A stretch of DNA of 64,000 bases from an uncultured Draconibacterium sp. (GTDB lineage Bacteria; Bacteroidota; Bacteroidia; Bacteroidales; Prolixibacteraceae), in NCBI RefSeq assembly GCF_963677155.1, contig NZ_OY781884.1, positions 1,668,501 through 1,732,500 on the forward strand, written 5' to 3'. Shown here in pieces: positions 43,388 through 46,915 of this stretch; position 1 is the stretch's first letter; every line of letters starts with the position of its first letter. Below the pieces are notes generated by a model. The model had not been told where the DNA came from. It saw only the letters and a program-made list of their open reading frames with translations, and did no database searches. The translations under genes and the position numbers were made by a program.

Positions 43388-44731
43388 ATGAACAACACAT
43401 TGCTAATATTAAAACAAGAATACCTGAAACGGGTTAAAAAGAAATCGTTTATCATACTAACCATCCTGATGCCGTTTTTAATAGCCGGCGTTTACGGACT
43501 GGTCATCTATTTCACGATAAAAGACGACACTGAAGAGCGCACCATAGCGGTTTACGATGCCACCAATCTATTTCTTGGCGAATTCAGCGACGAAGGAGCA
43601 ACAAGCTATCATTTTATTCCGAAAGAAGAATATACAGAGTTAAAAACGAATCTAAAAGGAAGTGGTTATTACGGCCTTCTTTTTATTCCATCCGACATTT
43701 ATTCGAACAACCAGGCACAACTTTTCTCCGAGAAACAATTGCCATTTGAATTGACCGAGCAAATTGAACGCAAACTAAGCCGCTTTATCGAAAACGACAA
43801 ACGACAAAAAGTAATAGCAGATTCGGGCATCCCCGATCTGGAGGAACGTTTGAGTAAAACGCGCACCAGTGTAACCCTTAGTACGTTAAAAGTTTCGCAA
43901 TCGGGCGAAACCAAGAAAAGCTCGTCGGTAGTGGCCTTTATTGCCAGTTACGCCATGGGATTTATTATTTATTTCTTTGTGTTTATGTATGGCGCCATGG
44001 TAATGCGGAGTGTAATGGAAGAAAAGAAAAGCCGTATTATCGAAGTAATTATTTCATCGGTAAAACCCAGCCAGCTGATGGCCGGAAAAATTATAGGAAC
44101 GGCACTGGTTGGCCTCACGCAGGTTGCGATATGGTTGGGTTTAGGAGGCATTGGATTGGTAGTTGTGCAGAGTTTCTTTTTCTCACCCGAGTCGGCACAA
44201 CAAATAGGACAAAGCATTATGGAATCGCAGGGACAAATGAATCCGGTAGCTATGCAGGCCACACATTCGAACCAGGCAATGGAAGTTATGGAAATGATTG
44301 GCAACCTGAATCTGCCGCTAATTCTTTTCTCATTCGTGTTCTATTTCCTGGCAGGCTATTTAATGTACAGTGCTTTATTGGGAGCAGTTGGCGCTGCTGT
44401 CGACAACGACGAAGATTCGCAGCAAATGATATTCCCGGTAACTTTCCCGTTGATACTTTCCATTATGTTGCTATTTCCCATTGCTAAAAACCCCGAAGGT
44501 CCGCTGGCATTTTGGTGTTCTATTATTCCTTTCACATCGCCGGTAGCCATGATGGCCCGTATTCCTTACGAACTGCCCACCTGGGAGCTCTTACTTTCAA
44601 TGGGCCTACTTGTACTTACAACCATCGTGTGTATTATGGCTGCTGCCAAAATCTACCGCATTGGGTTGCTTATGTATGGTAAAAAAGTAAATATCAAAGA
44701 ACTAATTAAATGGCTTAGATATAAAGGCTAG
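43388..44731 (+). CDS. ABC-2 type permease (NatB-like)
   Basis: A 447-residue permease, partner of the ATPase immediately upstream. I start at 43388 (MNNTLLILKQEYLKRVKKKSF), the typical ABC-2 start; the longer frame (43337) would overlap the ATPase gene. Membrane segments flank a large periplasmic part (about 50-195) and cluster at 200-440 with the signature MVMRSVMEEKKSRIIEVIISSVKPSQLMAGKIIG. The NatB family layout is clear. Confidence 0.92.
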   Translation: MNNTLLILKQEYLKRVKKKSFIILTILMPFLIAGVYGLVIYFTIKDDTEERTIAVYDATNLFLGEFSDEGATSYHFIPKEEYTELKTNLKGSGYYGLLFIPSDIYSNNQAQLFSEKQLPFELTEQIERKLSRFIENDKRQKVIADSGIPDLEERLSKTRTSVTLSTLKVSQSGETKKSSSVVAFIASYAMGFIIYFFVFMYGAMVMRSVMEEKKSRIIEVIISSVKPSQLMAGKIIGTALVGLTQVAIWLGLGGIGLVVVQSFFFSPESAQQIGQSIMESQGQMNPVAMQATHSNQAMEVMEMIGNLNLPLILFSFVFYFLAGYLMYSALLGAVGAAVDNDEDSQQMIFPVTFPLILSIMLLFPIAKNPEGPLAFWCSIIPFTSPVAMMARIPYELPTWELLLSMGLLVLTTIVCIMAAAKIYRIGLLMYGKKVNIKELIKWLRYKG

Positions 44732-44864
44732 TAACGAAAAGAATGAGTTCAGGATGACGAAACAAAATCTTTTAGACAGCCTCATAAATACCAAGATTTC
44801 TTAACAAAAAAGACAAAAACATGATTTTTTTCATATTTACTATTTAGAATAAATAAAAATTGCA

Positions 44865-44871
44865 TATCTTG
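44865..44871 (+). promoter_or_regulatory. Candidate -7 box for the cysK leader transcript
   Basis: TATCTTG (44865-44871) resembles the -7 box TAnnTTTG and lies 8 bases before the leader ATG. No TTTG -33 box is seen 19-21 bases upstream. If real, transcription would start near 44876, leaving almost no untranslated sequence before the leader ATG. Confidence 0.35.
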
Positions 44872-44879
44872 CACCTAGT

Positions 44880-44960
44880 ATGAAAAAGAAAAACACCTGT
44901 AACAATATGATGATGTGTTGTTGTTTCCTAAAAAAAGGGAAAGGTGTTGTAGTGTTTTAA
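44880..44960 (+). CDS. Sulfur-amino-acid leader peptide of cysK
   Basis: A 26-codon open frame starting ATG at 44880 and ending TAA at 44958-44960. It starts MKKKNTCNN, then has three Met codons (44907-44915) and three Cys codons TGT TGT TGT (44916-44924), followed by FLKKGKGVVVF. Four of 26 residues are Cys and four, counting the start, are Met. It lies 101 bases before cysK and directly ahead of a strong terminator, the classic layout of a transcription attenuator. It is too short for standard gene calling. A role as a functional peptide is not needed; sensing by ribosome pausing is the proposed function. Confidence 0.75.
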   Translation: MKKKNTCNNMMMCCCFLKKGKGVVVF

Positions 44961-44996
44961 CTTGAACTTAATTGCATGATTATACAAGGCCTTTCC
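44892..44996 (+). promoter_or_regulatory. Alternative RNA pairings of the cysK attenuator
   Basis: GGAAAGG (44938-44944, within codons after the Cys run) can pair with CCTTTCC (44990-44996), the 5' arm of the terminator, acting as antiterminator. AACACCT (44892-44898) can pair with AGGTGTT (44942-44948), and TTTCC (44924-44928) with GGAAA (44938-44942); both would free the terminator. Thus region 1:2, 2:3 and 3:4 pairings are all present. Found by eye; energies were not calculated. Confidence 0.6.
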
Positions 44997-45019
44997 GTGA
45001 ACGGGAAGGCCTTTTTTTT
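44986..45019 (+). terminator. Attenuator terminator upstream of cysK
   Basis: AAGGCCTTTCCG (44986-44997), loop TGAA and CGGGAAGGCCTT (45002-45013) give twelve pairs, one of them G-T, followed by eight T residues from 45012. It is a textbook intrinsic terminator placed between the leader frame and cysK. Confidence 0.92.
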
Positions 45020-45061
45020 GTTTAAAGAAATAATACCGAAATAACTCATAAATTAAAAAGA

Positions 45062-45973
45062 ATGAAAGCAAAGAACATTTTAGAAACCATTGGCAACACG
45101 CCACATGTGAAAATTAACCGCCTCTACCCAGAGGACTACGAAGTTTGGGTAAAAGTTGAAAAAACAAATCCAGGAGGGAGCATAAAAGACCGTATTGCAC
45201 TCGCAATGGTAGAGGATGCGGAAAAGAAAGGGATATTAAAAGAAGGTTCAGTAATTATTGAACCTACATCGGGAAATACCGGAATTGGACTGGCATTGGT
45301 AGCAGCGGTGAAAGGTTACCGTTTAATTCTTACTATGCCAGAGTCAATGTCGCTGGAAAGAAGAAGAGCATTAAAAGCATTTGGTGCCGAACTGGAATTA
45401 ACACCAAAAGAAAAAGGAATGAAAGGTGCCATTGCCAAAGCCGAAGAACTGGCTGCCCAACTGGGAAATGCCTGGATTCCACAACAGTTTAACAATCCGG
45501 CAAACGTTACCGCACACCGCGATTTTACTGCTCAGGAAATTTTAAAAGATTTCCCTGAAGGTTTCGACTACCTGATTACCGGTGTTGGTACCGGGGGGCA
45601 CATAAGCGGAGTTGCCGAAGTTTTAAAAGCAAAATTTCCGAAACTGAAAGTTTTTGCTGTTGAACCGGATTCAAGCCCGGTAATTGGCGGTAAAGATCCT
45701 GGTCCTCATGGAATTCAGGGAATTGGTGCCGGTTTTATTCCGAACAACCTGAATACTGATCTGCTTGACGGAACAGTAGAAATAAGTAAAGACGAAGCTT
45801 TCGAGTATGCACAAAAAGCAGCAAGAGAAGAAGGTTTATTTGTTGGGATTTCATCGGGAGCATCTTTTGCAGCCGTTGCCAAAAAGATAAAAGAACTACC
45901 TAAAGGTTCACGAATTCTTACTTTCTCGTACGACCACGGCGAGCGCTACTTATCAATTGAAGGATTGTATTAA
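45062..45973 (+). CDS. cysK: O-acetylserine sulfhydrylase (cysteine synthase)
   Basis: CysK makes L-cysteine from O-acetylserine and sulfide with PLP. The 303 residues begin [21 protein letters not shown]; the PLP lysine is in [14 protein letters not shown] (K42), the substrate loop is [13 protein letters not shown] (near 68-80), and the phosphate loop is [15 protein letters not shown] (near 175-190). The C-terminal segment [14 protein letters not shown] is conserved. It is preceded by a leader peptide and a terminator (44880-45019) and followed by its own terminator. Cysteine made here is the substrate of SufS encoded 26 kb away. Confidence 0.96.
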
Positions 45974-46606: not shown

Positions 46607-46915
46607 ATGAAGAAACTATTTTATCTATTTATTCTTTTCGGATTTATTGCCTGTAATTCGGGAACAAAAAAAAGTACTGAAGTAGCTCAACCGGAGCAAA
46701 TTGTTGAAGCCACTATTGATATTGGCGGATTACATTGCAATGCCTGTGTTGCCTCGGTAGAAAAAGGAGTAAATTCCCTAAATGGGATAGAATCGGTAAA
46801 AGTGACACTCGCCGACTCAACTGCCATTGTAACATACAACGCTTCGGCCGTGTCGATTGATGAAATTGAAAAAAGTATTGAAAAGCGCGGATACTCGATA
46901 AAAGCAGTGAATTAA
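46607..46915 (+). CDS. Heavy-metal-associated (HMA) domain lipoprotein
   Basis: A 102-residue secreted protein: lipoprotein signal MKKLFYLFILFGFIAC with a C-terminal lipobox Cys at residue 16, then an HMA domain (about 33-102) with the metal-binding pair GGLHCNACVASVEKG. It probably binds copper or another soft metal in the periplasm. The residue before the first Cys is His, instead of the more frequent Met-x-Cys pattern. Encoded 24 bases after DUF302, probably cotranscribed. Confidence 0.88.
   Translation: MKKLFYLFILFGFIACNSGTKKSTEVAQPEQIVEATIDIGGLHCNACVASVEKGVNSLNGIESVKVTLADSTAIVTYNASAVSIDEIEKSIEKRGYSIKAVN

Follow-up and report, generated by a model that had tools for sequence, protein, structure and literature searches.

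A predicted cysteine attenuator with adjoining methionine codons upstream of cysK in Draconibacterium and similar leaders of sulfur genes in Bacteroidia

Several classical attenuators, such as those of thr and ilv, read more than one amino acid. The polycysteine attenuator of mycobacteria works at translation and is not known to have an intrinsic terminator. Canestrari 2020 is said to have described polycysteine leaderless sORFs of mycobacteria as cysteine-responsive attenuators. The trp, his, leu and thr leader-peptide attenuators of Gammaproteobacteria are named in PMC1183508. The mycobacterial polycysteine sORFs are termed translation attenuation in PMC13236596, and those of Canestrari 2020 are also mentioned in PMC9094748. 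Cys leader peptides were predicted before cys/cbs operons of Actinobacteria (PMC1262725). The uORFC-8-2 motif, found upstream of cysS in Rhodobacterales, comprises a short ORF with two tandem Cys codons, usually its positions 14-15, and an intrinsic terminator, and stalling for lack of Cys-tRNA was proposed for it (PMC8632094). For a Flavobacterium, PMC9723704 reports hints that leader peptides attenuate amino-acid operons; its main text mentions cysteine only as a protease.

No Cys or Met/Cys leader in Bacteroidota was described in the titles and abstract starts listed by our searches, with subscription journals mostly outside the search. Lopatovskaya 2010 is said to be a comparative survey of attenuators and might mention Bacteroidota.

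The locus studied here lies in a stretch of 64,000 nucleotides (the window) from the 5.27 Mb genome of an uncultured Draconibacterium sp. An initial annotation had described a 26-codon frame with a Met-Met-Met-Cys-Cys-Cys run, two complementary segments, a perfect 12-pair terminator with eight Ts directly behind it, and cysK as the next gene. The features of the locus are listed below in window coordinates. A1 designates the alignment of 29 cysK leaders of the same genus (28 distinct rows).

44865..44872, + strand: promoter -7-like element TATCTTGC, assigned by sequence, 7 nt 5' of the leader ATG
44880..44960, + strand: leader ORF MKKKNTCNNMMMCCCFLKKGKGVVVF with stop codon, 26 codons, from the ORF list and the conserved Cys-run frame
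44892..44898, + strand: 5' arm of the outer stem, pairing with 44942-44948 in the MFE fold (75.5% of A1 cells paired)
44900..44908, + strand: 5' arm of the Cys-codon hairpin; its 3' arm (44915-44923) takes up almost the whole Cys run (80.2% of A1 cells)
44907..44915, + strand: Met-Met-Met codons, candidate control codons (MMMCCC in 16/29 leaders; Met enriched beside Cys elsewhere)
44916..44924, + strand: Cys-Cys-Cys codons, main candidate control codons (CCC in 27/29 leaders, MCCC in 26/29)
44924..44929, + strand: 5' arm of the protector hairpin, pairing with 44936-44941 (77.8% of A1 cells)
44938..44944, + strand: segment 2, GGAAAGG, 5' arm of the antiterminator (12 pairs, 91.9% of A1 cells paired)
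44986..45013, + strand: intrinsic terminator hairpin, stem 44986-44997 / 45002-45013, 12 pairs, from fold and alignment
44990..44996, + strand: segment 3, CCTTTCC, 3' arm of the antiterminator inside the 5' arm of the terminator, from complementarity and alignment
45012..45019, + strand: terminator T run, eight Ts, by sequence
45062..45973, + strand: cysK, cysteine synthase A, the predicted controlled gene (TIGR01139, 406.5 bits against a cut-off of 350.95)

The frame is real, and codon 7 is an additional Cys. Both complementary segments lie where the initial annotation had placed them, and the domain score bears out cysK as the next gene; it is the sole full-length match in this genome. The terminator needs two corrections: its stem does have 12 pairs, but one of them is G-U, and all eight Ts are present, but two of them sit inside the stem rather than behind it. 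The gene 5' of the leader is on the same strand, ends at 44731 and looks by eye like an ABC-transporter-like protein. The promoter-like element, which we take to resemble the Bacteroidota TAnnTTTG element, has the counterpart TATATTGC in many relatives. With its end only 7 nt 5' of the ATG, it may give an mRNA that is nearly leaderless. Beyond cysK, the window contains a small lipoprotein-like ORF (46607-46915) with a GGLHCNACVASVEKGV stretch that by eye resembles a heavy-metal-binding domain.

The leader folds with -41.1 kcal/mol (z = -4.92; 0/200 shuffles equally stable). The MFE fold is a three-way junction, formed by the outer stem, the Cys-codon hairpin and the protector hairpin, followed by the terminator. 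The alternative pairing of GGAAAGG with CCTTTCC, extended by UUGUA:UACAA, has -19.9 kcal/mol when folded on its own stretch.

We regard the cysK leader as very probably a ribosome-mediated transcription attenuator that reads the supply of cysteinyl-tRNA. Within this reading we lean towards methionyl-tRNA supply being read too. What the sequences themselves contain is the frame and its codons, two competing pairings that are conserved and covary, and the spacing from codons to segment. The attenuator reading of the initial annotation draws its support from conservation of the Cys run, from covariation in the 2:3 and 3:4 pairings, and from a codon-to-segment geometry compatible with stalling. 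Translation of the frame, stalling, termination and a response to Cys and Met we infer, as follows. A ribosome following RNA polymerase would translate the 26-codon leader. If Cys and Met are in sufficient supply, it would pass MMMCCC, cover segment 2 and reach the stop; segment 3 would then pair with segment 4, the terminator would act at 45019, and cysK would be off. A ribosome stalled on the Met or Cys codons would break the junction that sequesters segment 2. The freed segment 2 would pair with segment 3 once the latter is made, no terminator would form, and cysK would be transcribed.

The initial annotation had made its proposal depend on conservation of the frame and of the Cys/Met runs in close relatives. 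In the same genus (Draconibacterium/Maribellus), 31 of 37 genomes have cysK at E 1e-60 or better, and 30 of the 32 cysK matches, including the window locus, were taken for an upstream scan. A short frame with a Cys run lies 157-266 nt upstream of cysK in 29 of these 30 loci, and such conservation is thus present; second, unrelated Cys ORFs of two loci (L019 and L027) were set aside from the count. The one scanned locus without a Cys-run frame is L032. The 31st genome has a leader with MCYCC (L034). The Cys codons of the 29 aligned leaders show synonymous exchange between TGT and TGC, and nucleotide conservation is concentrated in these codons and in the switching arms. In L016-L019 an indel 3' of the Cys run alters the C-terminal frame of the peptide, and GGAAAGG is retained. 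Between terminator and cysK, three of these loci have a stretch resembling segment 2: GGGAAAGGTGG in L016 and AAAGGAAAGGTGG in L017 and L018.

In an order-wide sample, cysK was matched in 84 of 247 genomes. We scanned 600 nt upstream of 40 listed cysK places, with weaker places mostly left out and G177 and G263 excluded for want of upstream sequence. Cys-run frames were found at five places and at none of the other 35. One of the five is L034 of the same genus, and another, L033, is a five-Cys frame (SCCCCC) with a terminator in another family, with no internal Met before its Cys run. The remaining three (L035, L045, L072) have a Cys run without leader/terminator architecture. By eye, an upstream frame resembles cysE in L035, L036, L037, L039 and L041. 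A further stretch was seen before cysK in two families (L012:2441-2498, - strand; L037:512-572, + strand); it starts with ATGAAACGAGCAT, ends with GCGAGTTCCATC and resembles a small repeated element.

The initial annotation had also called for covarying pairings in relatives, and both 2:3 and 3:4 were found on A1. The antiterminator pairs in a larger share of A1 cells than every slid control. It has 32 cells changed on both sides against 11.8 +/- 2.3 in shuffles (0/500 as high). By two other counts it is not above shuffles: five of its pairs have both-side changes (shuffles 4.4, reached by 227/500), and its pair types number 14 (shuffles 14.3). The four helices of the alternative, terminator state pair in 85.1% of A1 cells. 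They have 48 both-side-changed cells (shuffles 17.4 +/- 4.5) and both-side changes in 13 pairs (7.8 +/- 1.6; 2/500 as high). Among them, the terminator is paired in 99.0% of cells and has both-side changes in five of its 11 counted pairs. The three leader helices reach 75-80%, the protector hairpin having both-side changes in 4/6 pairs. All these alignment figures come from one clade, the genus, and so are not probabilities. Matching column changes run across segments 2, 3 and 4 (pairs 64:123 and 123:142). RNAalifold on A1 found the terminator alone; the remaining stems were therefore assigned manually, with the MFE fold of the window leader as guide, and the helix counts lean towards that sequence. 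The outer stem is re-formed in a shifted register in distant relatives and is undercounted by A1.

The geometry was assessed with a model in which the RNA up to segment 3 is folded with a 29-nt ribosome footprint at each codon. For the window leader, a ribosome placed anywhere up to and including the Met run gives the antiterminator a probability of 0.93-0.94. The value rises to 0.99 over the Cys codons and 1.00 at codon 16, falls to 0.41 at codon 17, and is 0.00 for codon 18 and all later positions as far as the stop. When RNA 5' of the ribosome is barred from pairing, codons 17 and 18 have 0.54 and 0.12. The claim that a stalled ribosome exposes the antiterminator holds in this model. The value is equally high before the Met run, so the model locates the loss of the antiterminator and gives no special Met effect; a ribosome stalled at Met should, by this model, push the switch the same way as one stalled at Cys. 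Without a ribosome, the antiterminator has 0.92 at the segment-3 stage. The full-length RNA favours the terminator (0.92-0.97) at every ribosome position, so the switch must be kinetic, and kinetics are outside this model. The trp attenuation model is likewise a kinetic switch.

Averaged over 28 cysK leaders, the modelled value falls from 0.85 at Cys to 0.23 at the stop; L027, which has no terminator by the rule used, was left out. In 22 of the 28 the Cys value is more than twice the stop value, and it is in the model only that a stall leaves segment 2 free and a ribosome at the stop covers it. The other six (L017, L018, L020-L023) have no twofold difference between Cys and stop. The modelled drop comes a median of two codons past the last Cys in cysK leaders and three in the sulfite-operon leaders described below.

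A second Met/Cys leader with a terminator occurs in the same genome (L162:1471-1560). It reads MVNTFSKITMMKMTCMMCMCCDVIVVQRN with stop codon, with the core MMKMTCMMCMCC, and precedes a sulfite-reductase operon assigned by domain matches (L214:1569-7798, that is C1:3654068-3660297, outside the window). The operon encodes DUF2061, NAD_binding_7 (siroheme-synthase type), flavodoxin/FAD/NAD (CysJ type) and NIR_SIR (CysI type) proteins, and further an NAD-binding protein (weak, below the curated cut-off) and TP_methylase (CobA type). With the covariance model R1 the second leader has 34.7 bits, inside the noise, and it was accepted on other grounds: the peptide, the operon behind it and conservation within the genus. 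It is present in 21 of 24 same-genus genomes with a DUF2061 orthologue and absent from L193-L195. Its core is like M(T/A)CMMCMCC, with CMMCMCC or a near form retained across the genus, and by eye in the alignment its GCAGAAG/GCAGAGG can pair with CTTCTGC/T of the terminator. In the footprint model the Cys value is more than twice the stop value in 21/21 of these leaders, with the antiterminator at Cys only 0.53 on average and below 0.25 in 6/21. Elsewhere in this genome, no leader of this type accompanies the best cysE match (L339) or either of two PAPS_reduct loci (L337, L338); one three-Cys frame lies 856 nt upstream at L338, without leader architecture.

For R1, the window leader has 143.4 bits and the other matches in its genome at most 37.3 bits. 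Five of the latter were examined; L162 and the His leader L161 are among them, and the rest look like plain terminators. Class-wide, R1 has matches at E 0.05 in 226/396 genomes, which we treated as mostly noise; about half of 19 class-wide loci besides the window have Cys-rich frames and served as leads only. The His leader, MTGRTLHHGHHWKNQPSGRL with stop codon and terminator (L161), lies upstream of hisG (C1:4541728-4542192, - strand), and His attenuation in this genome is probable from its sequence. The same genome contains a large tandem repeat at C1:369241-373731, where TGTTGCTGC recurs 18 times with a spacing of 249 bases (one of 498).

A contig scan for ATG before three Cys codons gave 56 pattern matches. 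In 24 of them the next ORF by BLAST is cysK; outside Draconibacterium/Maribellus, such leaders come from Sunxiuqinia, Gaoshiqia, Mangrovibacterium and several MAGs. Four precede sulfur genes (L074, L077, L109, L127), and three (L081, L097, L124) are leaders of the same kind whose next gene lies outside the sequence examined. Most of the remaining 25 look like chance by eye. Like leaders precede cysE-cysK in L127 and L175. Single cases are a Met/Cys leader ending in NHMMVYCCMPLYRNFRS before a MetN-type ATPase with an NIL domain (L170:1465-1569) and one ending in MMCCEMCI before homoserine dehydrogenase (L169:1477-1548). The Cys leader before a sulfite-reductase-like gene in an Ignavibacteria MAG (L074:5230-5307, + strand) extends the Cys-leader theme outside Bacteroidota. 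At L109 the leader is followed by a 132-aa ORF that matches no Pfam family, and then by a sulfite-reductase domain. Upstream of that leader is an Rrf2-family regulator gene (L109:1399-1842, - strand).

The role of Met was assessed on sulfite-reductase loci only, in a sample that was not selected for leaders. Such a protein is found at 1e-120 in 93 of 396 Bacteroidia genomes, and 92 upstream stretches were read (G869, at a contig end, was left out; L234 and L272 are incomplete). By one terminator rule, 43 of the 92 have an intrinsic-terminator-like hairpin upstream; many of the others may be inside operons. A short frame with Cys-Cys precedes the terminator in 34 of the 43, i.e., 34/92 loci (35/92 with a looser filter), from 14 families and 17 genera. 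The next most frequent doubled residues are Met-Met (18) and Asn-Asn (12). Seven loci (L215, L221, L225, L244, L249, L265, L283) have two Cys/Met leaders in series, each with a terminator. An earlier phylum-wide sample had given four Cys leaders in 30 sulfite-reductase loci (L130, L131, L132, L136); several of its genomes recur here.

Met makes up 126 of the 1044 non-start residues (12.1%) in the 41 Cys leaders of this sample, selected on CC, and 11.5% at one leader per family. Their ATG triplets fall in frames 0/1/2 as 126/9/4, and 88 Met have a Cys no more than two residues away (31.9 +/- 4.5 after shuffling). Every one of the 41 has an internal Met, which touches a Cys in 38. As a control, 30 hisG loci were taken from 89 genomes with a match; 21 have a terminator, and 19 have an HH frame before it. 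In these 19 His leaders of the same class Met is 9/392 (2.3%), ATG frames are 9/13/4, and five Met are within two residues of a His (shuffled 3.1 +/- 1.4). The sulfite-reductase sample has 25 further short frames that precede terminators, some of which may be leaders without CC, as in L234; in these 25, Met is 21/508 (4.1%) and ATG frames are 21/10/5. Met is therefore no general habit of Bacteroidia leaders. The contig pattern demands ATG and R1 was built from ATG-rich leaders, so neither was used here. The enrichment fits a reading of both sulfur amino acids. AUG as such may also play a role, e.g., as restart sites, and selection on Met is inseparable from selection on AUG because Met codons have no synonym. 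The joint Met/Cys sensing proposed initially is thus favoured by in-frame Met beside Cys in the 41 Cys leaders compared with the 19 His leaders, but the triple Met itself occurs in only 16 of 29 relatives.

These counts bear directly on an explanation in which cysteine alone is read and the Met codons are passengers, kept as internal AUG starts or for structural needs. It is a variant inside the attenuator explanation, and the probability we give it is not exclusive with that one; we consider it possible though doubtful. MCCC is better kept than MMMCCC (26/29 against 16/29), and the L033 leader does without an internal Met before its Cys run, both as this explanation would have it. It is harder to reconcile with the constant presence, position and frame of Met in the Cys leaders of sulfite-reductase loci, with His leaders that show neither Met bias, and with the CMMCMCC core, or a near form, kept in the second leader of the genus.

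Other explanations do without attenuation. Cys and Met are metal-binding residues, and a functional Cys/Met-rich small protein, e.g., metal- or cofactor-binding, that stands by chance before a terminator and cysK would account for the conserved MCCC core. We hold this to be very improbable: in L016-L019 the C-terminal frame is altered while the RNA segment is kept, segment 2 lies at a distance from the Cys codons that suits a ribosome footprint, and in 14 families sulfite-reductase genes are preceded by peptides that differ yet have the same codons. A ligand-binding riboswitch made of the three-way junction and the terminator, with an incidental frame, is suggested by the junction with outer stem that folds in many of the 29 leaders. 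Against it, the 17 Rfam matches at E up to 10 in 44700-45200 include none at gathering score, the conserved nucleotides are mainly Cys codons and switching arms, the outer stem shifts register among relatives, and like leaders have an in-frame Met/Cys bias; this explanation is very unlikely. Alternatively, the hairpin might be the ordinary terminator of the upstream gene, which has the same orientation and ends at 44731, with a chance frame in front of the hairpin and cysK served by its own downstream promoter. Conservation of the frame, covariation and the promoter-like element directly before the leader make this scarcely credible.

We therefore keep to ribosome-mediated attenuation as the preferred explanation of the cysK leader. 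For its wider reach the balance is even: a widespread family of bivalent attenuators for Cys- and Met-tRNA might control sulfur assimilation in Bacteroidota and at least one Ignavibacteria genome, replacing a dedicated protein regulator. Its members would stand before cysK, cysE-cysK and sulfite reductase and, in single cases, before homoserine dehydrogenase and a Met-transporter-type ATPase; the tandem members would be two switches in series. If so, the sulfur-control circuit of Bacteroidota would be built from RNA and a short frame, some 20-35 residues long, and cysteine synthesis and sulfite reduction would be coupled to the charging of two tRNAs at once. Such coupling would make sense because methionine takes its sulfur from cysteine. 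Tandem leaders would permit series logic, and many short frames before sulfur genes would have to be re-annotated.

With the trp, his, leu and thr attenuators the cysK leader has in common control codons for the end product, competing antiterminator and terminator, and a biosynthetic gene downstream. As in the trp/his type, a short leader ORF carries control codons for the product of the pathway, an intrinsic terminator lies between this ORF and the structural gene, and the antiterminator is mutually exclusive with the terminator and conserved with covariation. Unlike these attenuators, it combines Cys and Met codons with cysK or sulfite-reductase genes in Bacteroidota and with a three-way junction, and some relatives have tandem leaders. 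It shares tandem Cys codons, a short ORF and an intrinsic terminator with uORFC-8-2, which differs in belonging to Alphaproteobacteria and to cysS only, with no Met run mentioned in the available part of the source (PMC8632094); here the gene is cysK and the relatives are Bacteroidales, not cysS in Rhodobacterales. The Actinobacteria leaders before cys/cbs operons likewise have Cys-codon runs in short frames before sulfur genes, whereas in Mycobacterium no conserved terminator hairpins were found, Rho was suggested, and the Cys runs are near the stop codon (PMC1262725). A poly-Cys short ORF is also common to the mycobacterial sORFs, but in place of translation-level control lacking an intrinsic terminator, the terminator here is present and conserved. 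Attenuation of this kind is familiar; what sets the present leaders apart is the phylum, the genes involved, the pairing of Met with Cys codons and, in some relatives, the arrangement in tandem.
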